64,000 nt of DNA from Rhizophagus irregularis. Taxonomy: Eukaryota; Glomeromycota; Glomeromycetes; Glomerales; Glomeraceae. Made by a program: the position numbers and the translations under genes. The notes beneath the pieces were generated by a model. That model had not been told where the DNA came from, made no database searches, and saw only the letters and a program-made list of their open reading frames with translations. The stretch's first letter is position 1; each line of letters begins with the position of its first letter. This document shows, in pieces, positions 3,131 through 53,459 of the stretch. The stretch is from NCBI RefSeq assembly GCF_026210795.1, contig NC_089429.1, positions 5,766,001-5,830,000 on the forward strand. Direction: 5' to 3'.

Positions 3131-4433
3131 ACAAGTTCAAAAGGTAAAGGTAAGTAACTGAGTCAGAAAGTAGTGAATTTAATGAACAAAGAATCTTATG
3201 TATTAGTAGTTTAGATTTATAGGTAGATACTATTGACGCAATATATTTACTTTGTATTTACGTTGATATGGGATTAATTAGTACGAATTAGTACGATTGA
3301 GTAATTATCTCTATACTAATAAAGTTTTAATTAAAAAAAGAAAAAAAAGATTAAGTCCGACTGAAGTGCCATTTTTGTTGTACAATGTCACGTGCGAAGG
3401 AAAAAAGTATCTTTTATATTATTTTTCTTAATAGACATATATTACATATACTTATGAGTTATGATTATTACACTTTATCCGGGCGGATATTCAGAACGTT
3501 TGCGTAGTAATATATAGTCCTTCGTTATACTTCGGACTAATAATTCAAGATTGAAGATTTTAACCATTCTACGACCTCTTAATAATTGTTCAAATACATT
3601 CTATATTTTTGTGACTTCAAGAACGGAATAAATAGTAATTGACAGCACCTTGTTCGGCTGGGCTTGGGCTTGCAAAGATCTATTATACAGTATTACAATT
3701 ATACAATATATGAATATATGAGGAAACCAACTGAATACGTTGTAATATCTACATATTTAAAAGCAAAAAATTTTATAATATTCTTATTACACATTTTGCA
3801 CGTTAGCAAGAAATAATTTTTTTATAATACTAATTTGTTTTGAATTATATATGAGTTATTGGTTAGGAGTAAATATCGGTCACTAAAACTAAAGATGCCA
3901 GTGTAATCTTCATGTATTAAATATGTGTATTTATTTGCTTGAAAATTGTAATTAAACAAATAGAGCAATTTACTAGTATTTATCTGTATTACGTTCTTTT
4001 AAATGATATCTAAAAAAAATCAAAACTTTAATTCCTTAATAAAGAAATTATTACTTTAAATACAAAATATTCAATTTTTTTTTATTCTTCTACTCATAAT
4101 AATATTTAATTTACAAATATTCGTTCTTATAATGATAAAATTTTATAAAATTGATTTAATGGTAAACTTAATATCTCAAATTTATAGATATTATCACGTA
4201 AAAAAAAAAATAGTATTATAAAACGAACGAAAATTTTCAAGCTTTTTTTTAATAAATGGATTTTAGAAATAATGTATTAATTATATAAATCTTTCATACA
4301 TAACCGTAATAAATTTCGTGATAGTCTTGTAAGTGTTTAATGGTCTAAGCATTAAAGACGTTTTGCTGGGACGTTAAATATTTTGAAGATAAATGCGTCA
4401 TCATAAACAAGTGATTCGGTGTTTCGGTGTTTC

Positions 4434-4480
4434 CGGGCCGAAGGATTTTCCGCACTGTATATAAGGTCAGCCATTCAACA
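4434..4480 (+). promoter_or_regulatory. Core promoter of the 4.5-kb BTB-BACK-TLDc gene
   Basis: A TATA box, GTATATAAGG, lies at 4457-4466, about 60 bases before the likely ATG. Upstream is CGGGCCGAA (4434-4442) and downstream CATTCAAC. Both flanking blocks recur before the decayed copy at 53.5 kb, and the CGG box also before the gene at 52 kb, so the element looks inherited with the gene family. Confidence 0.5.
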
Positions 4481-4523
4481 AATTAAGGACAACATTTCCT
4501 TTCATTTCTTGAAAAAACGAAAT

Positions 4524-6103
4524 ATGACTATAATGAACAATAATGAATTTTTATCAAAACTATCACAAAATTTACTTGAAATTTTAGAAGATAATGAATT
4601 TTATGATATAACAATTGAAGTTGGTAATGATCCTTATGTAAAAATTTTTCGAGCTCATATGGTTATTTTAAATTATCGTTCTCCTTATTTGCGAAGAATC
4701 TTATCAACTAGAGTTAATAGAAATAATAATGATGGAAGTTTAACTCATATTAGATTACCAAATATTTCACCGGAAATTTTTCAAACGATCTTAAGGTGAG
4801 AGGAATGAAATAATAAATTATAACAATTCTTTTATTTAAAAAACCCTACGTACTTACAGAATTATTCAAATATTTTAATTTTAGATATATCTATGGAGGA
4901 AGCCTTCTTTTAAAAGGATATGATATTTCGGATATTATTAAAATTTTAATTGCTTCCAGTGAACTTGGTCTTCAAGAATTAATCATTCATTTACAATTAT
5001 TTTTGATTGAAAATAGGAAAAATTGGATGAAACAAAATTTTAGTTTGATATATAAAACAAGTTTTGAGAATAATTCTTTTTTGAAATTACAAGATTTTTG
5101 TAAAGAATTCATATTTAATGAACCGGAAAAATTTTTTAATTCAAACGATTTTACTTCGCTTCCGGAAAGTTGTGTGATTTCTCTTATTCAACATAAAAAT
5201 TTTCAAAAGAATGTTATTCAAGTTTGGGAACATGTACTAAAATGGGGTATCGCTCAAAATCCAGAACTTCCTTCAGATCCTTCAAACTACTCAAAAAATG
5301 ATCTTAACACTTTAAGGGATACTTTACAACAATGTACTCGTTTTATTAAATTCTTTGATTTAAACCATAAAGAATTTTTGGATAACGTTTATCCGTATAA
5401 GAAGGTTTTACCAAAAGACTTACGTGAGAATTTAATCAAACATTTTATAAATCAACCAGATAATAAGCCAGAACCAAAGATAACTAAAGAAATTAGTTCA
5501 AAAAATACTATGGATTCAAAAATCATCACAATTCAACATGCTGAATTAATCTCTAAATGGATTGATAAATTAGAAATTACGGACGAGATAAAAAATCCAT
5601 ATGAATTCAAATTAATACTTCGTGGATCTCGTGATGGATTCTCACCTAGGAAATTCCATGAAATTTGTGATAATCAATCTCATACTATATCAATTATTAA
5701 AGTGGAAGATAGTAATGAAATTCTTGGAGGATATAATCCGATCATATGGAAATCTGATTATAGTTATGGCAATACTATGGATAGTTTTATATTTTCGTTT
5801 AGGAATAAGGAAAATATTGAAGATTATATTTTAAGCCGAGTAAAGGATGAAACTCTTGCTATATTTAATTCCGCTTGTCGCGGTCCAGCATTTGATTTTG
5901 ATCTTGTTTTGAATGGAAACAAACGTGGAAGTACGTTGCTTAGTCCACCATGTTATGAAAAACCGATTAGAAAAATTAATGGTAGTTTTAACGTAGAAGA
6001 ATATGAAATATTTCAAATTACCGAAGGAAGTGAAGAATATGAAATGTTTCAAATTACGAAGGGAAGTGAGCCTAAGGGGGACTCAAATTGTAATATATCT
6101 TGA
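4524..6103 (+). CDS. BTB-BACK-TLDc domain protein
   Basis: Two exons, 4524-4795 and 4885-6103, with an 89-bp phase-2 intron (GTGAG...TTTTAG) splitting an Arg codon; product about 496 aa. The ATG at 4533 matches the start of the 52-kb paralogue better and would give 493 aa. An upstream GTG-initiated extension is not a eukaryotic start. BTB spans roughly residues 18-125 (DITIEV, FRAHMVIL, SPYLRRIL), BACK 130-270, and TLDc about 302-485 (RGSRDGFS 337-344, GGYNPIIW 372-379). The last part of TLDc carries a 36-bp tandem duplication, so EEYEIFQITEGS is followed by EEYEMFQITKGS. It lies downstream of, and parallel to, a close paralogue. From the family, a Cul3-type adaptor is likely, with unknown target. 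Confidence 0.9.
5996..6067 (+). repeat. 36-bp in-frame tandem duplication in TLDc C-terminus
   Basis: Copy 1 is 5996-6031 and copy 2 is 6032-6067. They encode two near-identical 12-residue blocks that differ at two residues (I/M and E/K). The other BTB-BACK-TLDc copies in this window have the block once, so it is a recent gain in this gene. Confidence 0.9.
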
Positions 6104-8363: not shown

Positions 8364-9864
8364 TTATTTTTTAATTACTTGAAATACTTCATATTTTTCC
8401 ACCTTAAAACTTTCTGGAATTCCTATTTTAGGATAAGCAAAATTAGCATCACTAATATCAGAATGATAAAATGTCCAGTTGTCGGTACCGTTACAATAGA
8501 AATTGCCCATGTGTGGTCCTTGATTACTCTCGCAATAAATAGCACAACTTGCATTGTTGTCATTAACATAACTTAGTTTTGCAGTAGAAATACTTTTTCC
8601 ATCTATAATATTATTAAACAGAAAACTATCTGTAGTGTTTTTCCAAACACCATTTCCATCCCAATCAAGTGGATTATATCCTCCAATTAATTGTGTTGTA
8701 CCTTGAATTTTTGCTATCCAAATTGTAGCTCCTTTATTGTCACAATTTCTATGAAATGATGCAGCATCAAATCCATCTCTACTTGAACAATATATTAACT
8801 TAAATCCATAAGGAATATCATTTTTTTTATAAAAATCTTTTCTATCAATCCATGAAGCAAACAGTGGGATATGATTTGATTCAATTAAGGTTGAATCAAG
8901 TTTAAATTTTAAGTTTGGCTTTCTTGAAGGTGCTACATTAGTTTTAGGTTTTATATTAGGGACTATATGAAATTCTAAAAGATTATGAATTAAATCTTGA
9001 GGCAATATTTCTTTATAACAATAAACTTTATAAAAGAAATCTGCAGGGTTAATATCATAGAATCTAATTAAAGGAATAAATCTGTGTAATGATCTCTCAA
9101 TTTTTATAGCATCATCTTTACTCCATTTGGTAGGATCATTTAACATATTTTGCTGAGCAAAACACCATTTCAATAAACCTTCCCAAATCTCAATTTCCTC
9201 CATATTTAAATTATCTCGTTTAATCAACATTTCCAATAATGGAGCCTTTAAATCAGTAAATTTATCTGAATTAAATAAAATTTTAGGTTCTTCACAAATT
9301 TTTTCAAGACAAAAATTCCATAAATCCGTAAATGTTTCATATTGATAAATAGTTTCAAGAATACCAGTTGGATTTTGATGCAAAAATTCGGTTTGATGTT
9401 CAATTAAATATTCTTGAATATAAGAAATCAATCGTTGAATATTAAGTTCATCCACTGCTATCAAAAGTTTCAATACTTCAGGACCTTGTAAATTTTTCAA
9501 TTCAATATTTCCACAATAAATAAATCTAATAAATTATTATTAACAAAATATATAGTGTTAATTGAATACAAATAAAATTTTCATTGTTAATATTTTCTAT
9601 ACATTACCTGAGAATGATATTAAATAAGCAAGGAGAAATATTTGGTTTCCTTAAAATAAATTTTCCATCTTTTTTCTCAGCCCATTCATTAGAAAATGCA
9701 GAACGAAAATATTGAGACCTGATACACAAAATATTTGAATGAGCATGAATTTCTTTAACGTTTGACTCCTCTCCAGCATAAATGATAACATCATATCCTA
9801 ATTCTGTTTCAAAAAGTTTTTCATAATCACTTGATAATTCTGCCAAAAATTTTGAAGACGTCAT
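8364..9864 (-). CDS. BTB-BACK-TLDc domain protein, diverged paralogue
   Basis: Read on the minus strand: exon 1 9864-9608, exon 2 9525-8364, with an 82-bp phase-2 intron at the same BTB position as the other copies. The product is about 472 aa. BTB is residues 15-120 (YDVIIYAGEE, IHAHSNILCIRSQYFRSAF), BACK follows, and TLDc is about 300-470 (SSRDGFD near 335, LIGGYNPLDW, and the C-terminal FKVEKYEVFQV). The ATG at 9864 is preceded by a TATA-type box. It is clearly more diverged from the three plus-strand copies than they are from each other, so it is an older duplicate or a different subfamily. No frame damage is seen. Confidence 0.9.
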
Positions 9865-30622: not shown

Positions 30623-32341
30623 ATGATTACCACAATTATTTCATCTCTCAGAATCTCCGATATTTTTTCTATCTTAATAATTTATTTAATTATTTACATA
30701 ACTCGTTTCTATTATCATTATTTTACTCGTCCTAATCCTTTACCAGGTCCATTTCCACTTCCAATCTTTGGTAACTCTTATCAACAAATTGGATATCAGA
30801 TATGGATTTAATGATTGGTTATTATCATTACATAAAAAATATGGTGATATTTACGAAATAATCTTGGCAGGTCAACGTTCAATAATACTATGTAACCCAG
30901 ATTTAACTGAAAAAATGAATATATCTTCAACAAAATCTAAATATCCTATTAGATTACCTAATAGTGAAGGATTCGTGGAATATGGATTTGATGGGGTAGG
31001 AGTAGCATTTAATAATGATCTTCAATCTTGGAAATATAATCGTCAATTTTTTAGTCAAGCAATGATGTCTCCAAGTTTTAATTATCAAGCTCTTAAATGG
31101 ACTAATGAATTGTGGAATGAAATGGAATCTTATTGGAACAATCTTGGAGAAGATCATGAATTAGACCTTATAAAATGGTTGCGTAGATTTGCAAATGAAA
31201 TGATTTTTAGGATTTCTACTGGAGTAAAAAATGATGCTATCGCTTCTTATTATAATATAATTATTCTTAATAATAATAATAATAATTCATTAAACGAGAA
31301 AGAAAATGTGAAATTAAAGGAATCTTATGATTTTGTGAATCAATTGAAACTTACATTGAAGGAATTATTTATTTTTTCGCTTTTAATAAATTCATCCGTA
31401 ATAATATTCCATTTATTCGTGGAAAAGTTAAGAAATTATTAAAAAATAAAGATTATTTATTTAGTAAATTATACACTATTGTTAAAGAAAGAAGAATTGA
31501 GATTGAAAATTCACCATTAGATCAACCACTTCGTCATGATATGTTAACGTCGTTTATAACCGCGAATACACCACGTGATATTAACGTTGTGAAACAGGCT
31601 GATTCCGATTTATTAAGACCAATGACTGATAAAGAGATTTTTGGGAATATTCTAGACACGATGCTTGGAGGAACTGATACCGTATGTAAAAAATTTTTAA
31701 TTTTATTTTAATTTAAAAATGTGTACTTTAAGAAAATTTTTTATTTTTTAAAATCATAGACGGCGAATTTGATTTGTTTTGTTGTATATTATCTTGAACA
31801 TTATCCTGAGATAAAAAAACGATTGAGACATGAATTTGATACAGTTCTTGGAGAAGACTTAACAAGACCCATAACATACAAAGATCTTGACAAATTAGAA
31901 TATTGCGATGCAATTATTAAAGAAGTATTCCGCTGTAGCCCTATCTTTATCATTAATGGACGTATAAATTCTCAAAGTGATAAAGTTGGAGGATACGATT
32001 GGCCCGAAGGAACTCAATTTCAGATGCTGTTTTCCGCAATAATAAAACATAAAGATTATTGGACTGAACATGAAAAATTTGATCCTGATAGATTTTACAG
32101 AGTTGAAGAAAGTGATAAATATTTACTTGAAAAGAAAAATATGAAAACCACTTTTCCAATGTTTGGAGGAGGAATTAGAATTTGTCCTAAAAGAATTATA
32201 GAATTAAAATGTTTATTATTCTTAATTTATAGAAAATATGATATTGAATTAGTTGATATGAATTCTCCATTAAAATATAAACGTGATTTTCTTAACCTTT
32301 GTAAAGAATTAATTGTAAAGATTAAGCCACGAAAATTTTAA
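30623..32341 (+). pseudogene. Cytochrome P450, frameshifted and with damaged heme loop
   Basis: Exons 30623-31681 and 31760-32341 match the intact copies at 36.1 and 48.1 kb, including the intron after the GTDT I-helix motif. Three lesions are visible. CAGATAT is inserted at 30797-30803 and shifts the frame. One base is missing at about 31336 (GTG for GTTG), which shifts it back; the roughly 180 codons between are readable only in the other frame. The Cys loop reads FGGGIRICP followed by KR and IIELK instead of CPGRKLAMIELK: three codons and the conserved Gly after the Cys are lost. ExxR (EVFR) and the proline hinge are still present. The promoter is preserved. The net frame is restored but the middle of the protein would be scrambled, so this is very likely a pseudogene unless the two indels are assembly errors. 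Confidence 0.85.
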
Positions 32342-35970: not shown

Positions 35971-36097
35971 TCCGTTTTTTTAACTTTTTAAATTAAGATA
36001 AAAAATTTATTTTTTTATTTTTGTTTTTATTTTATTTTTGTTTTTACTTTGTTTTTTTAATTTTTTTGTTTTTTTTTTTTTTTTTAAAAAAAAAAAA

Positions 36098-37809
36098 ATG
36101 ATTACAACAATTTTTGAAATTTCCAATATTCTTTCTCTCTCATTGATTATTTCAATTACCTATGTAACCCATTTTTATTATCATTATTTTACTCGTCCTA
36201 ATCCTTTACCAGGTCCATTCCCACTTCCAATCATTGGTAACGCACATCAACAAATTGGATATGCATTTAATGACTGGTTAATATCATTAAATAAAAAATA
36301 TGGTGATATGTACGAAATACATTTGGCAGGTCAACGTTTAATAGTGTTATGTAAAACAGATCTAACTGAGAATATGAATATATCAGCCTCAACAAAAACT
36401 AAATATCTTAATAGATTTCATAATAATGAAGGATTCGTTGAATATGGATTTGATGGAGCAGGATTATCATTTAATAATGATTATAAATCTTGGAAATATA
36501 ATCGTCAACTTTTAAGTCAAGCAATGTTAACTCCAAATTTTGATTATCAAGCTATCGAATGGACTAATAAATTATGGAATGAAATGGAATCTTATTGGAA
36601 CAATCTTGGAGAAGATCATGAATTAGATCTTATAAAATGGATGCGTAGATTTACGAGTGAAATGATTTTTAGAATTTCTACTGGAGTAAAAATTGATATT
36701 GTCGCTTCTTATTATAATACAATAAATCTTAAAAATGATTCTTTAAATGAGAAAGAAAATGAAAAATTAAAAGAATCTCGTAATTTTATTGAATCTATTG
36801 AAATTTATATGGATGGATTTATGTATTTTTACACTTTTAATAAATTTATCCGTCAATATTTACCATTTATTCGTGGAAAAGTTAAGAAATATTTGAAAAA
36901 TAGGGATTATTTATTTAATAGATTGTACACTATCATTAAAGACAGAAGGATTGAGATAGAAAATACACCATTAGATCAACCACTTCGTCACGATGTGTTG
37001 ACGTCTTATATAACCGCGAATACATCACGAGATATCAACGATGTGAAACAGGATGACAACGTTGATTTATTAAGACCTATGACTGATAAAGATATTTGTA
37101 TGATTATACTCGACGCAATTCTTGGAGCAACTGATACAGTAAGTAAAATATTTTGATATTATCGTTATTTTTATTTAAAAATATGTTCTCCAAAATAATT
37201 TTATTAAAAAAATCATAGACGGCGAACTTGTTTTGTTATGTTGCATATTATCTTGAACATTATCCTGAAGTGAAACAACGATTAAGACAAGAATTTGATA
37301 AAGTTGTTGGAAATGACTTAACAAGACCTATAACGTATAAAGATCTTGATGGATTGGAATATTGCGATGCAGTTATTAAAGAAGTGTATCGTCACTCTCC
37401 CATAGCATTTGTTCTTGGTCGTATAAGTGCTCAAAATGATAACGTTGGAGGATACGATTGGCCAGAAGGAACTACATTTCAAATTCTTGCTTCCGCAATA
37501 ATGAAACATGAAGATTATTGGACTGAACCTGAAAAATTCGATCCTGATAGATTTTATAAAGTTGAAGAGGGTGATAAATATTTGCTTGAAAAGAAAAAAA
37601 TAAAAAATACTTTTCAAATGTTTGGAGGTGGAGTTAGAATTTGTCCTGGAAAAAAATTGGCAATCATAAAATTAAAATGTTTATTAATTTTAACTTATAG
37701 AAAATATGATATTGAATTAGTTGATAAGAATTCTCCACTACAACATCAAGATGGTTTTATTAACGTTTGTAAAGAATTATTAGTTAAAATTAAGCCAAGA
37801 AAATTTTAA
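36098..37809 (+). CDS. Cytochrome P450 monooxygenase, intact
   Basis: Exons 36098-37138 and 37219-37809 with an 80-bp phase-0 intron; about 543 aa, a normal length for a microsomal P450. Residues 1-30 form a membrane anchor followed by a proline-rich hinge (RPNPLPGPFPLPIIGN). The I-helix motif GATDT (343-347) ends exon 1. ExxR is E402-R405 (EVYR), the PERF-like region is FDPDRF 454-459, and the heme loop is FGGGVRICPG with Cys489 as axial ligand. Family knowledge: heme-thiolate oxidation at the ER surface using a P450 reductase; the substrate is unknown. The ATG at 36098 was chosen over an upstream in-frame start in a poly-Phe/Lys run, because MITTI matches the sister genes. It belongs to a local cluster of four copies. 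Confidence 0.92.
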
Positions 37810-39010
37810 TAAGTGAAATAAGAATTATATAAATATTTACGCATAATTATGTCTATTTATGATTAAAAATTAAAATCGGCTTTTATATTAAGTACGTTAA
37901 ATAATATTTTCATAAATTAAATAATAAATAAAGCTTTGAAAAGTAGATTTTCAAATTTTTCAAATAATTTGGAAATTGTTCTTTTAATACGAATTATATT
38001 TATGATAAAGCAAATTTTATTTAAGAAATTTCTTAAATAGAAGGCACACTGTAGAATTTATTATTAAATCTTTAAATAATAATATTAGCTTAAAAATGGT
38101 TAAGCTTATTAATCAGTTTATCTATCCGATTAAAATAGTACCAGACCATGAAGTTTGTGATAATATTTATTATTTAATGCGCTAAATTCTGAACGGAATT
38201 AAGATCTAAAATTTGTGTAATAAATTAATTCTTTAATGCCTTATAAAAAATGTTGTTCCGTCGTGAGTCGTCGTCCGTGTTCTATATTTCCATGTTTTCC
38301 CGTGAATGTATCTTATAGTCTTAAATCATGGAAATTTTAATCTCTCTAACACGGATATCCGTGAATTTTACGAAAGCCACAGATAAATAATGGAAAATAT
38401 TCGGATAAAAATTTTTTATAGGGATGGAGTTAAAGAAGGTTTTTGGGCTGGTTATAGGTTAATATGATGGATTAAATGGCTTTTCTTAGATACTCATTTT
38501 TGAGGTTTTTTTTGCCTTCAAAACTTCAAAAAAAAATTATTGTGGTGTTAAATTTATAATTCGAAATGAATTTTCAAAACTCCAGACTTTTCGAGTTTCG
38601 AATTGCGGTGATTTTCACTTTTATATGAAGGGACGCAAACCTATTATTGTAAAAAGACGTACGTTTTTTAAGATTAATGATCATAAGAATGTTGTTTGCT
38701 GCTTTAATTGTAGAGTTTAGCCGCCTAAAATAAGACTAGTAAGGGCACTCATCAATATTACCCATATTCAGCTAGGTAATAAAATTTGATTGACGCAAAC
38801 GGATGTAATCGAGAAATTATTCGATCATTTAGCTGTGTGGTCGATCAAAAATCTGACGATCACGTGCAGACGTTTCATCGATCAAATTATTTGATCGATT
38901 GAAAATTATGTTTATTGGTTCGATTAATAACCATACACATAACCAATAAAACCAATAAAAAACAATATTAATAATGTAACGAATGTAACGACCATTTTCC
39001 GACGGATACA
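37810..39010. repeat. 3' flank of P450, duplicated downstream of the pseudogene copy
   Basis: Several blocks recur in the same order at 42.55-43.95 kb. They are AAATTTTATTTAAGAAATT (38010-38035), GAACGGAATTAAGAT (38192), AACTTCAAAAA...ATTATTGTGGTGTTA (38523), TTATTGTAAAAAGACGTACGTTTTT (38644) and the GATC-rich block 38836-38998. This defines a duplicated unit of P450 plus about 1.2 kb of 3' flank. Confidence 0.6.
38836..38998. repeat. GATC-rich dispersed repeat, copy 1
   Basis: GTGGTCGATCAAAAATCT, then TTGATCGATTGAAAATTATG, TTTATTGGTTCGATTAATAACCA and AATAATGTAACGACCAT. The sister copy is at 43838-43935, with a fragment at about 43170-43195. Confidence 0.55.
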
Positions 39011-40763
39011 GTATATACATCACTTTATATCCCGGGGGTTTACGATAATATCCTGTTCCCCACGTGATAGTGGCGCAACAGCCTGATTTATTTGTACGTT
39101 ATACGCAGTACAAATTGTTTTCTCTTCCTTTTCTCTTCTTTTCAGTTATTTTTAAAAATATTTTTAAAAGTTTAAAAAGAAATATTCTTAAACACTGACC
39201 TTAAATATAGATATTTTTTCACATTAAATCTTATAATAGACGCGTTTTTTGTACAGAAATCTATCAGTATTATTTTATTATTTTAACCAAAATAATATGG
39301 CTTTTATTAAATAAGTAAAGTTATTCAGCAGGTGTGGGAATTTTTAGACATTAAATTTATTGAATTAACTTGAGTATTATAAGTATTTTAGTTTAAAGTT
39401 TCTGTAAAAATTTTAAAAATAGATTTCAAGCTTTAGCAGTCTAAAATTAAAATTTCAGTAATTAAAAAAAAATGAATTTCTATTACGTTCTACGAACGCT
39501 TATATATCAAATACTAATCATTTAAATTTTTTTTTTTAAAAAAAAATTTAAAAATTATTTTAATCTATAATAATTCGTTCTTTATTCGCTAATTTCTATC
39601 CGCAGATCCACCATAGCTAGCAGACTCAGCCATATGCATTTTCACAGATTATTTGGGTTGTAAACCCTTTGACACAACATAGATAATCTATATAGTATCT
39701 CGGTATTCAGGAATATCCGGAAAATGGAAAATGATAAAATATGTTGTCTGGAATTTTTTCATGTCCAGAAGAAAAAAATTGGACATATATTGAATAAGAT
39801 TTACTGGACAAATATAATCGGACGAAATTCCAGACACCAAAAACATATTTTGGACAAATAAAACTGAATATTAAATTCCAGACATTGGAAAAGAGACCAA
39901 TTTTGGACGATAAAAATAAAAAAATGTAAAATACACAAAACTATCTAAACTTCCCTCTAAGTAAAGTTAAAGAGCAAGTATCTATGACGTTAACTGCTAT
40001 AAATGATTGTATATTGTGTACATTGAATACAATATGTTTAACGCTTTATAAATTAATGTTCATTGGTGAATGATCTTTTCAATCTTAGTTACACTGAATT
40101 CGTTTAGTTTGTGCAAAATCATCGACTTGTGAAACAAAAAAAAATACGTGAACTTTATCCTTTGGAATTCCATTATCGAATGGTAATAGCCAATCATGTA
40201 TATCGTCTGACGATCACAAATAACTTAGGGTTAGTGACATTTATTACGTAACCAGTCTTAACCCCACATAATACATAAAATCTTATGTTACACCATATAT
40301 ATTAAGACCTTCACCCCCTAAAATATTATGTCATTGCCCTTAATTTTCTGTCAGTTTAGGTCGCAGAAATATAACAATCAAATTTATCTACGCCAAGTAC
40401 GGCATTTTTTTTATATGCAAACATTAATTAATCACTTAAGCGTCTAAGTCGTTATAAAAAATAGTAACTAAAATTTATATTTTGTAAAAATTATTACTAT
40501 GTATGGGGACCCTACAGGAAAGCAGGGGCTCAGAAAATCAAGGTTTAAATTACGTAATCGATTGTACGATCATCTTTACGAAAATGGATTTTCTCAATAA
40601 CTTCTTAGGACGAAATTTTACAAGCATTTAATTGAAAACTTATGCCGTGTTTTTAATTAAAATCATGGAATTTATATATTAGATATTTTTAATGAGGTTA
40701 TTGTGATATCTAGTAAAAAAAAAACACCGAAAAACTATTTAAATTACACCAATATATTATAGA
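39011..40763. other. Intergenic with inverted GTCTGGAATTT repeats
   Basis: No gene was seen. At 39740-39880 GTCTGGAATTT pairs with AAATTCCAGAC (39818 and again 39873), interspersed with TTGGACA motifs, possibly a decayed fold-back element. The P450-associated upstream repeat is present at about 40100-40195 (CTTGTGAAA...TTTGGAATTCCATTATCGAATGGTAAT). Confidence 0.45.
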
Positions 40764-41263: not shown

Positions 41264-42260
41264 TACTAAAATTATACTCTTGAAAATAATAATATTAATC
41301 CATTAAATGATTTTGTTGGGTCAATTGAATTTTATATGGAAGGAGTTATTTGTTTCTTCACTTATAATAAGTTCATGCGCCATTATTCTCCATTTGTTCG
41401 TGGAAAGGTAAAGAAATTTTTGAAAAATAAAGATTATTTATTTGGTAGTAGATTATACGCCATTATTAAAGAAAGAAGGATTGAGATTGAAAATACACCA
41501 TTAGAACATCATGATATGTTGACGTCTTTTATAACCGCGAGTACACTACGCGATATCAACGATGTGAAAAGTGCCGACGCTGATTTATTAAGACCCATGA
41601 CTGATAAAGAGATTTTTGGGAATATACTCGACGCAATATCTGCAGGAACTGATAGCGTAAATAAAATTTTTTAATATTATTCATTCCAACATTTGTGTTC
41701 CAAAAGCTTCAATAATAATTTATTAAAAAATTTTGTAGACGTCGAATTTATTTTGCTTTATTATGTATCATCTTGAACATAATCCTGAAGTGAAATAACG
41801 ACTGAGACAAGAATTTGATACGACTCTTGGAAATGACTTAACAAGACCAATAACATATAAAGATCTTTGTGAATTAGAATATTGCGAAGCAGTTATTAAA
41901 GAAGTATATTGTCACTCTCCTACAGCATTTTTTCTTGATCGTATGAATGTTCAAAGTGATAACGTTGGAGGATACAATTGGCCAGAAGGAACTCAATTTC
42001 AGATGCTTATTTCAGCGCTATTGAAACATAAAGATTATTGTAATGAACCTGAAAAATTCGATCCCTGATAGATTTTATAAAGTTGAAGAAAGTGCATAAA
42101 TATTTACTTGAAAAGATGAAAATACCAAATACTTTTCTAATTTTAATTTATAGAAATATGGTATTGAATTAGTTGATATGAATTCTCCACTACAATATAA
42201 ACAGGAACATCTTAACCTTTGTAAAGTATTAATAATTAAGGTTAAGCCAAGAAATTTTAA
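41264..42260 (+). pseudogene. Cytochrome P450 pseudogene, 5' truncated, heme loop deleted
   Basis: Homology to the 48-kb gene starts abruptly at about 41264, inside exon 1, so roughly the first 210 codons are absent. The intron is kept (41657-41738). Exon 2 has an in-frame TAA at 41796-41798, ExxR changed to ExxC (Arg codon CGT to TGT at 41910-41912), an inserted C at about 42064 and another at about 42093. It also has a deletion at about 42135 that removes the whole Cys heme-binding loop. It cannot encode a P450. It is closest to the 48-kb copy by eye. Confidence 0.93.
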
Positions 42261-44340
42261 AAAGAATAAGAATTATATAAATCTGGGCGTCTAGAGCGGA
42301 GCAGTTTTGGGCAGCATTACAGCATTAAGAAACTATGCATGTGACGCCGGCGATATTTACTACGGTCACGTGATTATTTACTGCTTTATTTATTTATTTA
42401 TTAATAAATCGACGGGCAGGGCGACTTTTTTCGGGAGATTGGGCACTTTCATGATTTTGGTTGATTAGACTTGTAGTTTATGCTCACTCATGTATTTGTT
42501 AGGCTCCAGTCGTGTCTATATTTTAAAAATAAAAATAAAATAATTTTATATATCATAAAGACCCGAAAAATAAAATTTCAAATAATTCGGAATTATAGCT
42601 TTATCGCTTCAATTAGTCAATTATGATTCAAAAGAATTATATTTTGATGAAACAAATTTTATTTAAGAAATTGCTTAATTTTGAACGGAATTAAGATTTA
42701 ATAGCCTTTCTCGTTTGAACGCAAACGAAAATAGGTCAAGCCTAGACCGAAACGGTAGAAAGGAAAACATTTATTATTAACTTTTTTAACCTTCAAAACT
42801 TCAAAAAGAAATTATTGTGGTGTTACATTTTTATTCGATTGTATTGGTCAACTTTGCTAATCTAAAAATTTAATTTATAAATTTCAATCAGTAAGTTCAT
42901 TCCGAATTATCATATAATAAATTAAGTCTGTTTAAATTAAATTGTAAAGTATAAGCTGTAAATGAACAATTTAAGCATTATTACTTCAAGTTCTTTTTGA
43001 TGTTGAATATTTTATTTTTACAATACAAATTTCTAGACTTTCGAATTCATTATTCATTTATTAAGTAGTCAAACATTATTGTAAAAAGACGTACGTTTTT
43101 TTTTAAATGATCATAAGAAGGTCGTAAAATTGCAAAGTTTAATTAAAGCTGCAATCGACGATCATGCAGGTGCGTGGTCGATCAAAAATCTTAGCATTTA
43201 CACTTCAATAGGCCTGTTCAATTCTGATCGTTCGTTGATAATTATTGGCTGATGAAATTGTGTGACCTGATCAACAACCCGAACTTTCCGAACAACAAAA
43301 AATGTGGTGTCATTTTGATCGCTTTTTTTTAACGTGTCTGGTGCTTAGTAAAGTTTTAATATACGCCCTCAAAAAGTTTACTATACCTTTATGGTATTGC
43401 TTATTTGCCATTTTTAAAAAAGAAAAATATTTTATTATACGAGAAATAAGGTGACCAAGGTTAACCGTTCAATAAGCCGTTCAATAAGCCCTCAATTTTG
43501 ATTTTGATCACATGTTAAGATTGGTTAATCGATTTTCGATCAAAAAACCCGAACGATCATAATTGAACATGCCTAATAAGACCACGTGAATGGCGAGATC
43601 TGTTTACATTTATCTCAGCAATTTGAGTCCCTGTAAGCAGTGATATGCATAAGCACTTTTGGACTTCCAATTCTTCCAATTCCAATAATACTTCCAATGT
43701 TAAACAAAGATTGAATTCTATAAAACTTGCATATATCTCATTTTTAGTGTATTTTTTTTTACTACATTATGTACTAATTTAATTATTTATAGTCTAAAGT
43801 ATTTTTCGAGTTATTTATGCGCCACATTCCATGATCGTGGGTCGATCAAATTACCGAATTTGATTGATCAAAAATTATGTTTATTGATTCGATTAAAAAC
43901 CAAAATTAATAATGTAACGACCATGCATTTCCGGCAATCAAATATATGTGAAATCTATCACGGGCTTGTGTGTCAACTTATCTTGTAATTTATCACATTA
44001 CTTATTATTCGTATGAACATCAATTTATTACTTCTGTATTATTTGGTGTATTTCACATTTTTTTTTTTAGTCATTTCCATTTCTCCTTTTCCTTAAAACT
44101 TTTTTTTTCTTTCCCTGTTCTTAGAAATAGTTTCATTTTTATTAACCTTTTTTTTAGGTATTTCATGTCATAGTATTTGTCATGAACTTCTTTTAATTAT
44201 TCCTCTTTTATTTATTTATACAATAATGAAAGGGCCTTTTTAAGGCTTTTTTTTTTTTGAAACAGTTTATAAACTGAGGTAAGTCTTTCTTATTAATTTA
44301 TTGTTTTTCTATTGCCTTTTTCTGTTGTTGAAATTTATTA
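42261..44340. other. Duplicated P450 3' flank and spacer
   Basis: 42550-43940 repeats the blocks listed for 37810-39010, including the GATC-rich block at 43838-43935. The remainder is AT-rich, with T-rich tracts from 44060 to 44260. The open frame near 43970-44173 is a Phe/Tyr-rich composition artefact. Confidence 0.55.
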
Positions 44341-44348
44341 ATTGTTTC

Positions 44349-44950
44349 CAGGAGTCCATTTCGTCTCCAGGTGGTGTTCATATAAGAACCATCGAAAGAA
44401 CATTAGGAAACGTTCTTAAACAAAATAAACACTTACCTTCGTTCTAGAAGCCTATTTCGACTCCAGGGAGCGTTCCTACAAAAAAAAAAGATCAAAAGTA
44501 TGTTTAAAATGTTCTTAAACAAAAGGAAACAAAAAGAAGCACTTACCCTGAAATCCATTTCGTCTCCAGGGGGCGCTCCTATAAAAAAAGTTATTGAAAG
44601 AACGTTAGAAACGTTCTTAAATGAAAATTAACAAAAGAAATGACTCAAACGAGGCGTTCCTAAAAAAAAAATTATTGAAAAGAACGTTAGGAACGTTCTT
44701 TAAACGAAATTAACACAAAAAAATGAAAAAGAATTTTACTTTTAGTCTTAAAGAGTGGAGCGCTCCTATAAAAAAAAAATATTGAAAGAACGTTAGGAGA
44801 CGTTCTTGAACGAAATGAACGGGAAAAAAAATGAAAAAAACACTTACCTTTATGTCTAGGAGATTATTTCGTCTTCAGGGTATTCCTACAAATAAGGGTA
44901 ATTAAAAGAACGTTATAAAACGAAGTAAAAATAAAAAATAAAAATAAAAA
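44349..44950 (-). repeat. Tandem array of micro-exon-like units with AACGTT palindromes
   Basis: About six units at 90-116 bp spacing. On the minus strand each unit reads: poly-T, then (A/G)TAG acceptor-like end, then a block such as GAGCGCCCCCTGGAGACGAA, then GGTAAGTG (perfect donor-like, at 44842-44847, 44541-44546 and 44431-44436), then AAGAACGTT(N)AACGTTCTT palindrome, then poly-T again. Blocks between acceptor and donor are 38, 32 and 39 bases in the three best units. Other units have lost the donor. No continuous reading frame is kept across units. Confidence 0.65.
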
Positions 44951-45269
44951 ATAGATCGATTATCTAAATTACACAACCAATAAAATTATAAAATTTTAAA
45001 ATCACTTCACGTGATAGGGTGCGTTCGAACGCAGGTGCTTTAAACCCATTTAAAAAATAGCTTTTGCGATCATTATCGTCGGTCATCCTATCACATATGA
45101 AATAAATATTGTCAGAAAAAATTTTTTGATCAAACCCTTTTAATATACAGTACTAAAGAAGAATGTACCACTTTAGTTTTTTTCAATATCGAATATGTTA
45201 TTTATTGATAAATATATAATATTTACATATAAATATTAAAAAAAAAATTTTTATGCATAATTTATTTAA
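44951..45269. other. Spacer
   Basis: AT-rich sequence between the tandem array and the left end of the Harbinger-like element. No gene or repeat was recognised. Confidence 0.5.
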
Positions 45270-46577
45270 GGCCGGGCAAAGTTAATTTTTAGATTCTCGT
45301 GACATAAAATTTTAAAATTGACCGGTTTTTTTTTTTTTTTTCATATGTAAATTTTTTTATATGTATTTTGTATTATATTTTGTATTACACAAATATATCT
45401 TGTATTACACAAACAAAGATAAAATTGTTAAATCTATGTAAATCTATCTTCCGCCACTTTTTATTAAATAAAATCTGATATGCCGATAATAATTGTACAT
45501 GTTTTGCTTCGTTCTAAAACAGTATTTGAGTGGGAGGGGCTTCCTGTTGATGAGGATATGAATATAAAAGATTTTTTAATGATGTAGTAGTTAATGAATT
45601 AAAGATAGAATTATGGGGAAAAAATTGTATTGCATATTTTAGTCCTACAAAAACGGGTGAAATAGAAAAATAGGACTGAGTAACTAATGCATGGGAAACT
45701 GTTAAACAGTGCGGATAATATGTAACATTTAAATTACTTGATGACTCTAATAATGAGCCAGCTATGAATACAATCAATGCATTTGAATTAATGAAATCTG
45801 CTTCAATGCTTAACTACCTTCCAGAATTTAAATTACCAGCAAAAATTCTTTGGATCAACTATGCATAGATGGAGGTGGCTGGATAGGAAAAGATAATGCA
45901 AATAATATTAGAAAAAGATTTGTTTCTAATTTAACAAAATCTACGTATATGTTGATATTTGTTCTTATAAAACATTAGATGATAGATACAAAATTCCGGA
46001 TTTATTTACTAGGTTTTTTGATCAAGCCCATCCTGAAAGATACAAAAAATCAAGATGATCATTTAATTCAGAAGAATTACAAAGTTATTATAAAATTCCG
46101 ATAAATTACATTGAATTACCATGGATGGAAAAACCCAAATTTGCTTGGCTTAAAGAACCTATGCTGCTTTATGCAACAAATCTTCTGAATACTTTATTAA
46201 TCAAAGAGCTATAACTGCAGATAATCAAAATTCGTTAACTCCTATAGTTGATGAAGGAAAAGCAGGATATATAGGAAATATATGGAGGAAAACTGTAATT
46301 ATTAAAGAGTTTCGCATTCTTATAAAAGCTTTAGAGAAATTGGAATATTGGAAACTTGTTGATATAAACCAATTCTGTCCAGTATCACGAAAATAAGATT
46401 TTATATTTACGAAAATAATATGTAACACGTTTATTGAATTTTATATAATAAAGTATATGCAATTTTATTATGTTAAGTCACGTGATAAAAAATTTTACTA
46501 TAAAAAAAAAATCCCTGAATTTTTGTAAAACTGACACGGCCGGGTCACGAGAATCTAAAAATTAATTTTGCCCGGCC
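45270..46577. mobile_element. Decayed PIF/Harbinger-like DNA transposon
   Basis: The 1,308-bp element has 34-bp terminal inverted repeats (45270-45303 and 46544-46577, one mismatch) beginning GGCCGGGCAAA, flanked on both sides by TAA. A 3-bp TAA target duplication and GGCC-type ends are typical of PIF/Harbinger. Inside, 45490-46396 on the plus strand reads as coding-like sequence in pieces (KTLDDRYKIPDLFTRFF, YIELPWMEKPKFAWLKEPM) with stops and frame changes, ending at a TAA near 46396. I do not recognise this internal protein. Confidence 0.75.
45490..46396 (+). pseudogene. Broken gene inside the Harbinger-like element
   Basis: Protein-like fragments lie in at least two frames with in-frame stops at several points (for example before 45870 and near 46060). 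No catalytic motif of a Harbinger transposase or its Myb-like partner could be identified, so it may be an accessory or captured gene. The density of stops excludes function. Confidence 0.5.
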
Positions 46578-47394
46578 TAAATTGTCTTTTTTTAAATTAT
46601 CTACTGATAATTTTTCAATTTTTTTTTTTTATTATAAGTTTATTGTGATTTAATAAAAAATATGTCCAAGAAATTTTTTATATGCAAATATCAAAAATTA
46701 TTTTTTCAGTTTATAAGAATCGAAAAAAAGAAGCCCATTATTCTTTAGCTTCGGTGATGATCTGTTGTGGCTGATCACCTTAACAGTTAAGACAATTAAG
46801 CTTTTTTATTAAATTTCATTAACCGGAATCAGGATGTACACATGTCCCAAATTATACTAACTATAATAAATAACCAGGTGCAGACATGTTTTCTTTAAAA
46901 TTGTTAATTTGGACAACTTTGTCTTGTTTATATTATAATAAAATATTTTTAGATGCACAGAAAAATTTTTCTATCTACAGAAAAAACAATAATCATATGT
47001 TAAATCATTGATAATACAATATTCAAACAATATTCTTAAAATAAAAGAGATTTTAAATCATATGTTAAAAGAAAAAATTAGGAAAGGTATTTCTTTTTTT
47101 AGTTAAAAAAGAAAAATTTATCGTATGATGATCTCGTTATCAGCAAAATTAAAAAATTTAAAAAAAAACCATAAATTAATGCACAATAAAAGTGCCACAG
47201 GAATTCCCAAATCACAATTTTACTCTAACGATTTACAATACATTTTCAGTTCATTAATATTAATATTAAATATTAATTTAAATTAAATTTATTTTATTTT
47301 ATATAAATAATAAAGAACAAATAGTGTGGTAGTCGGATATTCCTTGCTGCGCTCTGAAAGACGAATTCGTTCCGGATGTAACTTTTAGCAAAAC
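46578..47394. other. Intergenic, no gene seen
   Basis: AT-rich spacer between the DNA transposon and the upstream repeat of the next P450. No coding sequence or element ends were recognised. Confidence 0.5.
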
Positions 47395-47680
47395 CATTTG
47401 GCATATTTACTTGTGAAAAGAGATCAATAAATTTGTGAATTTTCTCGCTGCATCCTGAAAGTTCACTGAATTCGTTTCGGATATAACTTTTAGTTAGAGC
47501 GAAACCATTCGGCGTATTTACTTGTGAAAAGAAGTAATAAATTTGTGAATTTTATCTTTTTGGAATTCCATCATCGAACGGTAATATTTTGCATATTTGC
47601 CGATTGTACAATGAGAATAACAAGTTTATTATTCATGTCCAATCTGGAAATCGAAGTTACAGTCTTGGAAAAGATCTTAA
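47395..47680. repeat. P450-associated upstream repeat, two tandem copies
   Basis: GGCATATTTACTTGTGAAAAG...AAATTTGTGAATTTT occurs at about 47400-47450 and again at about 47512-47552. Between them CTGAATTCGTTTCGGATATAACTTTTAG repeats a preceding GACGAATTCGTTCCGGATGTAACTTTTAG. Single versions occur upstream of the other P450 copies. Confidence 0.6.
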
Positions 47681-48051: not shown

Positions 48052-48076
48052 ACCGATTATTTTTTTTTAAAAAAAA

Positions 48077-49765
48077 ATGATTACAACAATTATCTCAACT
48101 ATCGGAATTTCCGATGCCCTTTCTCTCTTAATAATTATTTCAATTTTCTATGTAGCACGTTTTTATTATCATTATTTTACTCGTCCTAATCCTCTGCCAG
48201 GTCCATTCCCACTTCCAATCATTGGTAGCGCTTATCAACAAATTGGATATGGATTTAATGATTGGTTATTATCATTAAATAAAAAATATGGTGATATGTA
48301 TGAAATAATTTTGGCAGGTCAACGTTTAATTGTGTTAGGTAAAGCAGATTTAATTGAGAATATGAATATACCATCTTCAACGAAGACTAATTATCCTAAC
48401 AGATGGCCTAATACGGAAGGATTTGTAGAATACGGATTTGATGGAGTAGGAGTAGGATTTAATAATGTTCATAAATCTTGGAATTATAACCGTCAATTTT
48501 TTAGTCAAGCATTAATGACTCCAAGTTTTAATTATCAAGCTATTGAATGGACTAATGAATTATGGAATGAAATGGAATCTTACTGGAATAATCTTGGAGA
48601 AGATTATGAAATAGACCTTATAAAATGGATGCGTAGATTTACAAATGAAATGATTTTTAGAATTTCTACTGGAGTAAAAAATGACGCTCTTGCCTCTTAT
48701 TATAATAAAATCACTCTTGAAAATAATAATATTAATCCTTCAAATGAATTTGTTGAATCACTTGAAACTTATATTGAAGGAATTATTTATTTCTTCGCCT
48801 TTAGCAAATTTATTCGCCATTATCTTCCATTTATTCGTGGAAAGGTTAAGAAATTATTGAAAAATAAAGATTATTTATTTAATAAATTATATACCATTGT
48901 TAAAGAAAGAAGGAATGAGATTGAAAAGACACCACTAGATCAACCACTTCGTCATGATATGTTGACGTCTTATATAACCGCAAATACACCACGTGATATT
49001 AACGTTATGAAACATGCAGACGCTGATTTATTAAGGCCAATGACCGATAAAGAGATTTTTGGAAATATACTCGACGCAATGATTGGAGGAACTGATACAG
49101 TAAGTAAAGATGTTTTAATACTATTTTATTCAAAATTTTGTGCTTCATAATAATTTTATTAAAAAAAATCGTAGACATCGAATTTGTTTTGTTTTATTGT
49201 ATATTATCTTGAACATTATCCTGAAGTGAAACTACAATTGAGACAAGAATTTGATAGAATTCTTGGAAGTGACTTAACAAGACCAATAACATTTAAAGAT
49301 CTTGATGAATTAGTATATTGCGATGCAGTTATTAAAGAAGTGTATCGTCACACTCCTATAGTATTTTTTCTTGGTCGTGTAAATGCTCAAAATGATAACG
49401 TTGGGGGATATAATTGGCCAGAAGGAACTCAATTTCAAATGCTTATTTCCGTATTAATGAAACATAAAGATTATTGGACTGAACCTGAAAAATTCGATCC
49501 TGATAGATTTTATAAAGTTGAAGAGAGTGATAAATATTTCCTTGAAAAGAAAAAAATGAAAAATACTTTTCAAATGTTTGGAGGAGGAATTAGAATTTGT
49601 CCTGGAAGAAAACTTGCAATGATAGAATTAAAATGTTTATTAATCTTAGTTTATAGAAAATATGATATTGAATTAGTTGATAAGAATTCACCACTAAAAT
49701 ATAAACGTGACTTTTTTAACCTTTGTAAAGAATTAGCAGTTAAAGTTAAACCAAGAAAATTTTAA
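48077..49765 (+). CDS. Cytochrome P450 monooxygenase, intact
   Basis: Exons 48077-49099 and 49175-49765 with a 75-bp phase-0 intron at the GGTDT I-helix motif; about 537 aa. A membrane anchor and the hinge RPNPLPGPFPLPIIGS lead the protein. ExxR is E396-R399 (EVYR), then FDPDRF, then the heme loop FGGGIRICPG with Cys483. Compared with the 36-kb gene it lacks about ten residues in the variable Asn/Glu-rich segment before the I helix (near residue 220). The ATG starts MITTI, as in both sister copies, and directly follows a T/A tract. It is intact and probably expressed, given the retained promoter block. The substrate is unknown, and redundancy with the 36-kb gene is likely. Confidence 0.92.
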
Positions 49766-51841
49766 AAAAATTGTATAAAAGAATATAAAGAATTATGTAA
49801 ACATTTATGTATTACAACTATTTATAACTTATTATTAATAAATCAGGTTTATTAATATTTTCATAAAATAGGAGCGGAGCATCAGTAAATTATTATGCAG
49901 CTAAATAGGATCATCATGTTCCCTATAAAAAATATATTAAATTTAAATTTTGCTGCAATTATTCTTATTTAATACTAAAAATATGCTGAAAATGAAAATT
50001 AAAGATCTTCTTTAATCAATTTTCATAAAGTTTGATTTGATCAGATTACAATGGGGTGGCTATCACATGAATCTTGCCGATCATATTTCACCCAATATTT
50101 ACCCCCTAAAGTGGCTTAGACAAATGGCTTAGGCTCGGCTCGGATAGTATCAGTATCAGTTATATAAAGTTAATTGTTGTACAAAAAGTTTGCTTAATAA
50201 TATTACCTGTAAAAATAAAATCTTGCTGCAATAAAAGTAAAAGTTATGACCTTTAGCACGTGATTTCTATTGTCCCACAGTTATTTATTAATAATTTTCT
50301 TTGTAGTTCCCACCATGCTGATCTATATAAATTTATGATTATTTCCTTACTTAGAATAACTAGAGTCATACCCTAAAGCCGGTGACCGGCCCTTTCTAAG
50401 AGTATGATATATACCATAAATTTTAACACTTATTTGCAGAAACAAAAGTATTGATAAGATATAATTTAATTTTGTTTGAAATAAATAAATAATTTATTTT
50501 ATTTTTTTTTTCATCTAAAATATTTTAATTTGTTTTTTACGTTTTGATTTAATAATCTTGTAATTGGTCTTAAAAGAAGAATTTGTAAAAAACAATTTTT
50601 TTTAAAAAAATTTTTTCGTTTCTAACCAAAATAAAATAATTCAATAAAATTTATTTAACATGATTAAAAACTTAATATTGTAGGATATTTCAAATCAAAT
50701 TTGGACGATTCTATGTCCACATATGTTTTTAATAAATCAATTCATGTAATATATAATTTTTTTAATAAATCAATTCATGTAATATATATTTTAATAAGTA
50801 AATTCATATAATTTTTCTTTAATAATTAAATTCATATAATGTTTTTAATAATTAGTAAGTTTGTATTATGTTTTTTAATTATAATTTTTTACTAATAAAT
50901 ATTTTTTTAATAAATAAACTTAATAAATTCGGATATATAATTTTTCTTAATAAATCAATTCATGTAATATATATTTTAATAATTAAATTTGTATAATGTT
51001 TTTTAATAATTACTAAATTTGTATAATGCCTTTTTTTAATAAATAAACTCGTATAATGTTTTTTAATAAATAAATTTAATAAATTTGGGTATATATATTT
51101 TTTTTAATAAATTCGGGTATATATATTATTTTTAATAAAATTCAGATATATATTTTTTTAATAAAACACGGATGTATTTTTTTTTTAATAAAATAAGTTC
51201 GGATATATATTTTTTAATAAAATAAAATTCAGATATATATATATTTTTGGATATATATATTTTTTTTATAATTTGGATATATGTATATTTTAATAAAATT
51301 CAGACATATTTTTTTTTATATATTTGATCATCATTTAAAGAATGTTATATATTTAATTTCCTTCAATTCCTATTATAATTAATCACAAAAATTGGCCTCC
51401 TGAACAATGTATACGAATAATAAATATTTCCTTGATGTTAATATGTAGTTAGCTCCCAGATTTTTGGCCAGCCAATTGACAATTCATAATTTCTTGATGT
51501 CAATATATGGTTAGCTCATGATTTTTGATCAACCAATTCGGATCATGCTGCAGATCATGATCAAATTTTTTTTTTTATATAAACGACCATCAATTCAATA
51601 TCAATATCAATACAATATCAATACAATATCAATATATATCAATAATATAAAAACGTACCCTATACTTAGCCCATAAGAGCTAACTAAATTAGTAAAATTT
51701 TCCTTCCATAGCACGATTAGCATAACAACCAATTACAAGGACTATCACTATTAAAATGAAGATCACCTGATATCGTTAACTATATAGCGTGATCTGTATA
51801 TGGTGTCAAATAAAAAATTTGTGATACTGATACTTTTTCGT
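49766..51841. other. Intergenic with long AT tandem array
   Basis: No gene was seen. Contains an imperfect hairpin at 50366-50407 (TCATACCCTAAAG...CCCTTTCTAAGAGTATGA around GCCGGTGACCGGC), the AT-rich array at about 50729-51320 and a (TCAATA)n-like microsatellite at 51590-51645. Confidence 0.55.
50729..51320. repeat. Degenerate AT-rich tandem array
   Basis: Units of about 30-40 bp vary around TTTTTAATAAATCAATTCATG followed by TAATATATA. The first units are well conserved (50729-50790 and 50938-50972). Later ones drift to TTAATAAATTCGGGTATATATA and TTAATAAAATTCAGATATATA. No coding potential. Confidence 0.7.
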
Positions 51842-51957: not shown

Positions 51958-53459
51958 ATGAATGATAATACTTTTTTACCAAAATTATCACAAAATTTAC
52001 TTGAAATTTTAGAAGATAATGAATTTTATGATGTTACTATCGAAGTTGGTAATGACCCTTACGTAAAAATATTTCGCGCTCATATAGTCGTTTTATATTA
52101 TCGTTCTCCTTATTTGCGTAGAATTTTGTCAACCAATAAAAAGCAAAATGATGAAATTTTGGTACATATTAAACTGCCAAATATTTCACCTGAAATTTTT
52201 CAAATAATCTTAAGGTGAGAGAGCGCAAGTTATATATAATAGGTTAGGAGTTTTTTTTTTTATTATTATTATTTACATATTAATTTTTTTTTAATAGATA
52301 TATTTATGGGGGAAAGCTTTCTTTAAAAGAATATGATACATCTGATATCATTAAAATCATGGTCGCCGCCATTGAACTTAATCTTCAAGAATTAATCACT
52401 CATTTACAATCCTTTTTGATCGAAAACAAAAAAGATTGGATAGAACAAAATTTTAATTTGATATATCAAACAAGTTACGGGAATAATTCTTTCTCGAGAT
52501 TACAAAATTTTTGTACAGAATTAATGTCTAAAGAACCGGAAAAAATTTTTAATTCAATCGATTTTATTTCACTTTCAGAAAATTGTTTGATTTCTCTTAT
52601 TCAACATGATAACTTTCAAATGGATGTTATTAAAGTTTGGGAACATATACTCAAATGGGGTATTGCTCGAAATCCTGAACTTACTTCGGATCCTTCAAGT
52701 TATTCAAAAGATGATTTTAACATTTTAAAGAATATCTTAGAACAGATTATTCCCTTTATTAAATTTTATAATTTAACTTCTGGAGAATTTTTGGACAAAG
52801 TATATCCCTATAAAAAAATTATACCTAAAGAATTACGTGAAAACTTGGTTAAATATTTTTTGAATCCTAATAATCAATCAGTTAAAAAATTCAATAACCC
52901 AAAAAGTATTGATTCAAGGATAATTACAATACAACATGCTGAATTAATATCGAAATGGATTGATAGATTAGAAATTACTGACAAGATAAAAAATTCATAT
53001 GAATTTAAGTTGATTCTTCGTGGATCTCGTGATGGATTCTCACCTAGTAAATTCCATGAAACCTGTGATAATCGATCTCATACTATATTGATCATTAAAG
53101 TGAAAGATAGCAACGAAATTCTTGGAGGATATAATCCGATCATGTGGACATCTGATATTACTTGGGGTGCTACCAAAGATAGTTTTATATTTTCTTTTAA
53201 AAATAAGAATGATATTGAAAATTATATTTTAAGCCGCGTAAAAGTTGAAAAATGTGCTATAATAAATGGCTATAATTGCGGTCCATCGTTTGCTGCTGGT
53301 CTTATTATAGGAATTATGAATGGAGATGATATTCACAATAATAATATTCATAATAGGGGTTATTGTAGGAAAAATATTATTTATGAAAAACCAATTAGGG
53401 AAACTGTAGATGACTTCGCTTTAGAAGAATGTGAAATATTTCAAATTACGAAATGTTAG
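51958..53459 (+). CDS. BTB-BACK-TLDc domain protein
   Basis: Exons 51958-52214 and 52298-53459, with an 83-bp phase-2 intron splitting the conserved Arg codon; about 472 aa. BTB is residues 15-120 (YDVTIEVGNDPYVKIFRAH, YYRSPYLRRIL), BACK 125-265, and TLDc about 292-470 (RGSRDGFS 327-334, ILGGYNPIMW, DSFIFSF). Near the C-terminus a His/Asn-rich insertion (HNNNIHNRG) enlarges the loop before the final EIFQI strand, relative to the copies at 0-6 kb. The ATG is the first after the promoter block. It is intact, and is closest to the 4.5-kb gene in the BTB exon. Probably a Cul3-type adaptor by family; the target is unknown. Confidence 0.9.

Follow-up and report, generated by a model that had tools for sequence, protein, structure and literature searches.

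A decayed tandem array of exon-like and intron-like modules in Rhizophagus irregularis, possibly the relic of a repetitive spliced gene

Several described systems share features with a minus-strand array of about 600 bases (ca 44929 to 44340) in the window analysed here, that is, the whole of a 64,000-nucleotide stretch of Rhizophagus irregularis DNA. The content of the array is copies of one exon-like plus intron-like module. In tandem exon duplication, as outlined in two reports (PMC9013439, PMC9741552), exons are duplicated in tandem, as they are in the array, in which homologous exon-plus-intron copies lie head to tail. The array goes further in that the adjoining intron is also duplicated, and it differs from the cases outlined there in that a block of less than 40 nt is present five to six times and is decayed, with no parent gene found. 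Schistosome micro-exon genes likewise combine several very short exons with a repetitive design, and their products are secreted, according to PMC10526429. The introns of these genes are there put at 100 to almost 5000 bp, whereas the intron-like blocks of the array measure 57–82 nt, and their exons are mostly multiples of three, as against one of the three donor-ended exons of the array (38, 32 and 39 nt). In other words, the long introns and multiple-of-three exons of a schistosome-type micro-exon gene are not found in the array.

Among fungi, introner-like elements are repeated intron-like sequences with canonical splice signals, as are the intron-like blocks of the array; PMC4457414 describes many near-identical copies in unrelated genes, whereas the array is a repeat of exon plus intron at one place, with 63–73% identity to one of its copies. 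The sister stwintrons of the fungus Hypoxylon (PMC9024468) resemble the array in being repetitive and symmetrical and in that a predicted stem takes in their branch point. They are, however, nested introns with terminal inverted repeats, whereas the inverted repeat of the array is internal and no nesting was seen. Short imperfect repeats are also common to the array and to the SP7-like effectors of arbuscular mycorrhizal fungi, in which, according to PMC11333574, a conserved intron precedes the first repeat, with no mention of one for each repeat; the array, in contrast, has an intron-like block for each repeat. The SP7 motif given there, Y[KR]Rx[AP]x[AP], was not seen by eye in the translations of exons 1, 4, 5 and 6. 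The AGL tandem-repeat proteins of Glomeromycotina are described in PMC8786786 as having, in Rhizophagus, a single intron close to the boundary of the signal sequence.

Read along the minus strand from 44929 to 44340, the array opens with a partial intron, continues with five exon-plus-intron modules and closes with a sixth exon-like block (Table 1). The tandem modules are real. A 70-nt stretch is present in five copies, the other four being 63–73% identical to the reference copy, and leave-one-out profiles find each module from the other four at E values of 2.4e-9, 8.8e-7, 5.8e-6, 8.8e-4 and 2.1e-11 for modules 1 to 5, respectively. A profile of all five modules recovers them in nhmmer, by construction, at E 4e-20 to 4.7e-12, and below threshold it also matches the sixth exon (44379–44348, E 0.088), the partial intron (44919–44886, E 0.19) and, in two short plus-strand matches, the inverted repeat (E 0.52 and 2.1). 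Across the 64-kb window this profile has no match outside the array at E up to 10, and in the rest of the window the leave-one-out profiles give no significant copy, their single match standing at E 1.1. Within the array, Tandem Repeats Finder reports just one 82-bp duplication (44572–44726). A preliminary description of the sequence had counted three units; the tandem arrangement stands and the count becomes five exon-plus-intron modules and a sixth exon, with modules 2 and 3 lacking the exon core. The block lengths given there, 32–39 bases, agree with the 38, 32 and 39 nt measured.

Table 1. Coordinates of the array modules and of neighbouring features in the window.
Feature	Position	Strand	Description
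Module 0	44886..44929	-	Partial intron, 3' part, with one inverted-repeat arm and TTATTTGTAG; array edge; resemblance by eye, letters checked
Module 1, exon-like block	44848..44885	-	38 nt, 37% GC; stops in 3/3 frames
Module 1, intron-like block	44766..44847	-	82 nt, GTAAGTG...CTAAC...TATAG; hairpin 8/9 pairs
Module 2, exon remnant	44740..44765	-	26 nt, 42% GC; core deleted; boundary by eye
Module 2, intron-like block	44660..44739	-	80 nt; donor degraded to GTAAAA; perfect inverted repeat, CTAAC, TTTAG
Module 3	44579..44659	-	81 nt, without exon core and donor; perfect inverted repeat, CTAAC and TATAG present; 82-bp tandem copy of the adjacent module
Module 4, exon-like block	44547..44578	-	32 nt, 59% GC; all frames stop-free
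Module 4, intron-like block	44476..44546	-	71 nt, GTAAGTG...TGTAG; without CTAAC; inverted repeat 6/9
Module 5, exon-like block	44437..44475	-	39 nt (13 codons), 51% GC; single open frame
Module 5, intron-like block	44380..44436	-	57 nt, GTAAGTG, hairpin with CTAAT; without terminal AG
Module 6, exon-like block	44340..44379	-	40 nt shown, 47% GC; by eye, the resemblance stops near 44343
Cytochrome P450 cluster	30702-32341, 36002-37809, 41270-about 42080, 48071-49765	+	Three copies match Pfam p450
38-nt inverted repeats	45266-45303 and 46544-46581		95% complementary, 1240 nt apart, bounding a 1.3-kb stretch beyond the array
TLDc ORFs	34-1245, 4407-6100, 8367-9533, 52284-53456		Several

The likeness of the blocks to introns, as judged from their letters, is supported by the donor, by CTAAC or CTAAT, by the T-tract, by TAG and by the lengths. 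At the donor, GGTAAGTG starts on the minus strand at 44848, 44547 and 44437, and these are its sole occurrences on either strand of the 64-kb window, where dinucleotide frequencies lead one to expect about 0.5 for both strands together; the three perfect donor-like strings noticed at the outset are thereby borne out. The looser string AAGGTAAGTG, with one mismatch allowed, has seven matches (three in the array) against a mean of 2.8, and one of 100 shuffles reaches seven, such that the enrichment is less striking than that of GGTAAGTG. GTAAGTG is kept in modules 1, 4 and 5, and the donor of module 3 has gone along with the exon core. At the other end, an AG following at least four T, with at most four other bases between, ends at 44766, 44660, 44579 and 44476 (the same search also finds two TTTAAG strings within modules), and a fifth acceptor-like string ends at 44886, its AG coming after TTATTTGT. 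An AG stands directly before five of the six exon starts, four times after poly-T, and the intron-like block of module 5 ends in TATAT with no AG ahead of the next exon. One acceptor that the preliminary description placed at 44477 actually ends at 44476.

CTAAC is the usual fungal branch-point consensus. It occurs in modules 1, 2 and 3 with its second A 27, 27 and 26 nt from the AG end, and in module 5 the A of CTAAT lies 23 nt from the block end; module 4 has neither string. By sequence, the complete set of donor, CTAAC, T-tract and AG is present in module 1 only, modules 2–5 each lacking some part. Under a strict pattern that requires donor, CTAA[CT], T-tract and AG, the window has two matches (44847 minus, which is module 1, and 27886 plus), where 60 second-order Markov simulations average 0.08; without the branch string, there are three matches, two of them in the array, against 0.15 simulated. 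None of the 60 simulations produced three patterned donors within 450 bases, a result that is discounted as evidence since the array itself yields only one such donor (strict) or two (no branch string). The branch-like string resembles that of minor (U12) introns. Rhizophagus irregularis is described in PMC10639083 as rich in such introns, and a minor intron was considered for the array; the GTAAGTG donor argues against it.

For comparison, six introns were located by eye in the split P450, TLDc and kinase ORFs of the window, two candidates from a separate scan for introns joining long open frames being left out. These six are 75–86 nt in length, all end in TAG, and start with GTAAGT in two cases and with GTATGT, GTGAGA, GTAATG and GTAATT in one case each. 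Length and GT...TAG ends are, in other words, shared between the array and the local introns, while CTAAC and, for the most part, the long T-tract set the array apart: CT[AG]A[CT] (CTRAY) was found in none of the six, and a long T-tract is missing from most of them. Since none carries CTRAY, CTAAC is not a local habit, and its absence lowers the case for a repetitive spliced gene and raises that for a minisatellite, both of which are set out below.

The exon-like blocks 4, 5 and 6 are far richer in GC than the intron-like blocks and the whole of module 3 (21–28%), the window overall standing at 26%; exon 1 and the module 2 remnant, at 37% and 42%, fall short of them. Ranked against 30-base windows, the first 30 bases of exon 4 fall within the top 0.4%, those of exons 5 and 6 within the top 0.9% and those of exon 1 within the top 12%. 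The 39 nt of exon 5 make exactly 13 codons, and its single open frame reads NAPWSRNRLLER; in this frame, exons 4 and 6 read SAPWRRNGFQ and NTTWRRNGLLET. As exon 5 is open in one frame solely, over 13 codons, introns of phase 2 would lie on both of its sides. Between the three pairs of exons 4–6, the differences at codon positions 1, 2 and 3 number 8, 4 and 10, with the minimum at position 2, in a comparison of 11 variable columns out of 30 from three exons. Exons 4 and 6 are stop-free in every frame and exon 1 in none; the 26 codons for which exon 6 is open are equalled by 18% of minus-strand starts in 43500–46000, and the lengths of 38 and 32 nt do not keep the frame. Neither a first exon with a start nor a flanking minus-strand coding exon was recognised by eye, the longest unspliced stop-free run in 44250–45010 being 64 codons. 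The coding signal in the decayed locus is, overall, faint. A literature search for the exon peptide strings found none. Repeats like the exon translations may be present in Rhizophagus protein sets.

The array is decayed and mostly broken: deletion has removed two of the six exon cores, three of the five donors survive, the last acceptor is gone, and one exon has stops in all frames. In pairwise comparison of modules, identical letters amount to 40 of 45 in the acceptor TAG (taken at the expected bases of all six copies), 82 of 90 in the 5' arm of the inverted repeat, 78 of 90 in its 3' arm, 83 of 96 in the exon core (four copies) and 53 of 80 in the spacer after the arm. The three surviving donors are identical in 21 of 21 letters, and two of the five are gone. 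There is no clear preference for the splice strings over the exon core or the arms; the preferential conservation by which the preliminary description proposed to judge its unit is, when checked inside the array, not seen.

That description had offered a gene relic, a spliced non-coding RNA or a selfish repeat as explanations. The likeness to introns on which all three draw holds up, albeit with the full signal set in module 1 only, and the relic gives the closest fit, given that splice signals or exon cores are missing from several modules. Tentatively, and with somewhat less than even confidence, the array may be read as what is left of a repetitive spliced gene in which every 13-codon repeat had its own phase-2 microexon and which grew by exon-plus-intron duplication. 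The repeat unit would have been one microexon, ancestrally of about 39 nt, together with its own short U2-type intron of about 70–80 nt, multiplied by tandem duplication of the entire exon-plus-intron cassette. In a working relative, each intron would be removed and the microexons joined into a run of repeats of about 13 residues, the number of which could change by unequal exchange between cassettes. The present locus, with two exon cores, two donors and one acceptor gone, is probably dead, or partly spliced at most.

The main rival, which is possible if rather on the doubtful side, is a non-coding minisatellite with units of about 80–120 bp, whose founder would have held splice-like strings by chance or from an old intron; these would have hitch-hiked with the duplications and would now be unspliced. 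Such a history would sit well with the loss of two of five donors and one acceptor among splice strings kept no better than the rest, with the stops in exon 1, with the 82-bp tandem duplication, with the want of CTAAC in the six local introns and with a position between genes, beside a relic bounded by terminal inverted repeats (TIRs). It is less readily reconciled with the correct order of donor, CTAAC, T-tract and AG, with the two strict-pattern matches, one of them module 1, where simulation gives a mean of 0.08, and with the GC of exon blocks 4–6, which is far above that of the intron blocks.

The inverted repeat, AAGAACGTT...AACGTTCTT, bears on a further alternative. The preliminary description placed it in each putative intron; both arms are exact in modules 2 and 3 only, i.e. 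in the modules without a good donor, and over modules 1–5 the arms pair at 8/9, 9/9, 9/9, 6/9 and 9/9 positions, the last with one G-U. The CTAAC string lies in the inverted repeat, partly within the 3' arm, and a predicted stem covers part of it in modules 1–3. Palindromes with CTAA and at most three mismatches occur at two places in the window (four rows, both strands), as against none in 100 shuffles, and the folding z-scores of modules 1–5 are -3.46, -2.26, -1.80, +0.43 and -2.02 (module 3 being folded from 44649). The hairpin seems to have belonged to the founder unit, with no sign of retention for function. It follows a different course in the proposal of a live spliced RNA, non-coding or weakly coding, in which modules 1, 4 and 5 would be spliced, the dead modules 2 and 3 possibly skipped, and splicing tuned by the hairpin over CTAAC. 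This we consider unlikely: three GTAAGTG donors and five AGs do remain, CTAAC is partly in the predicted stem of modules 1–3, where z-scores go down to -3.46, and PMC9024468 reports fungal introns whose branch point is predicted to be masked, but a proper donor is absent from the very modules that have perfect hairpins, module 4 shows neither CTAAC nor excess folding, and the final acceptor is gone.

An introner-like or other selfish element with splice signals, spread as intron copies and piled up in tandem here, is very improbable, for although introner-like elements of fungi number in the hundreds, as near-identical spliced introns that occupy unrelated genes (PMC4457414), and the inverted repeat is borne by the intron, the repeated unit takes in the exon, the inverted repeats are internal rather than terminal and there is no significant second copy in the 64 kb.

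Returning to the favoured reading of a gene relic, intact relatives, if they exist, would show the joint multiplication of microexon and intron in a fungus, and would provide a natural series in which copy number, splicing and the branch-point hairpin could be compared. The array in the present window is most likely a relic and chiefly useful as a probe for them. A bolder proposition, and quite an unlikely one, is a genome-wide family of spliced minisatellites, in which exon-plus-intron cassettes would spread as DNA arrays and their transcripts be trimmed to pure exon repeat, such that array size would set the length of the protein or RNA and the branch-point hairpin would control how many repeats are included. 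Rfam covariance models give no match in the window at the gathering score; with E allowed to reach 1, 44000–45300 holds two matches that fall short of that score (E 0.072 and 0.77). Two exon patterns and the intron patterns have no match in viral_contigs, a collection that should contain little fungal DNA, such that the absence is weak. In genome_contigs, which comprises prokaryotes with little fungal DNA expected, the exon pattern has one match, in a Fibrobacter MAG; this was rejected as a relative and taken as chance, the 251 surrounding bases showing no array by eye. Among the literature matches listed, no title or abstract start describes the array, which is likewise a weak absence.

Stop-to-stop ORFs of the window match the TLDc, BTB, protein kinase and cytochrome P450 families, those of the P450s being interrupted by intron-like gaps, and the array sits between P450 genes of a tandem cluster. 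The P450-like copy at 41270, which was outside the Pfam scan, resembles the other copies and looks broken by eye. When a P450 stretch of the window was searched against viral_contigs, seven stretches fitted the peptide pattern and none was confirmed. Similar stretches within 38507–38933 and 42782–43902 point to segmental duplication. The interval 38933–40125, ahead of the previous P450 copy, has anchors in common with 43902–47520, and it holds no counterpart of the array (alignment score 28, shuffle mean 26, maximum 37). No clean empty site can be demonstrated there, as three neighbouring stretches also fail to align (scores 32, 28 and 32; shuffle maxima 40, 37 and 45).

Beyond the array, the 1.3-kb stretch with its 38-nt inverted ends looks like the relic of a DNA transposon. 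It contains a stop-riddled plus-strand fragment from about 45480, which we take to be crinkler-like. On the strand opposite to the array, an intron-like stretch (44279–44351, plus), CTGAGGTAAGTC, has its GT at 44279 and a TTTCCAG end at 44351; it adjoins module 6 and may be due to chance. Further along, AT-rich tandem repeats with a period of about 28 bp and longer occupy 50721–51318. As for the TLDc ORFs, one has a BTB domain in the immediately preceding ORF and another a BACK match just below the cut-off.
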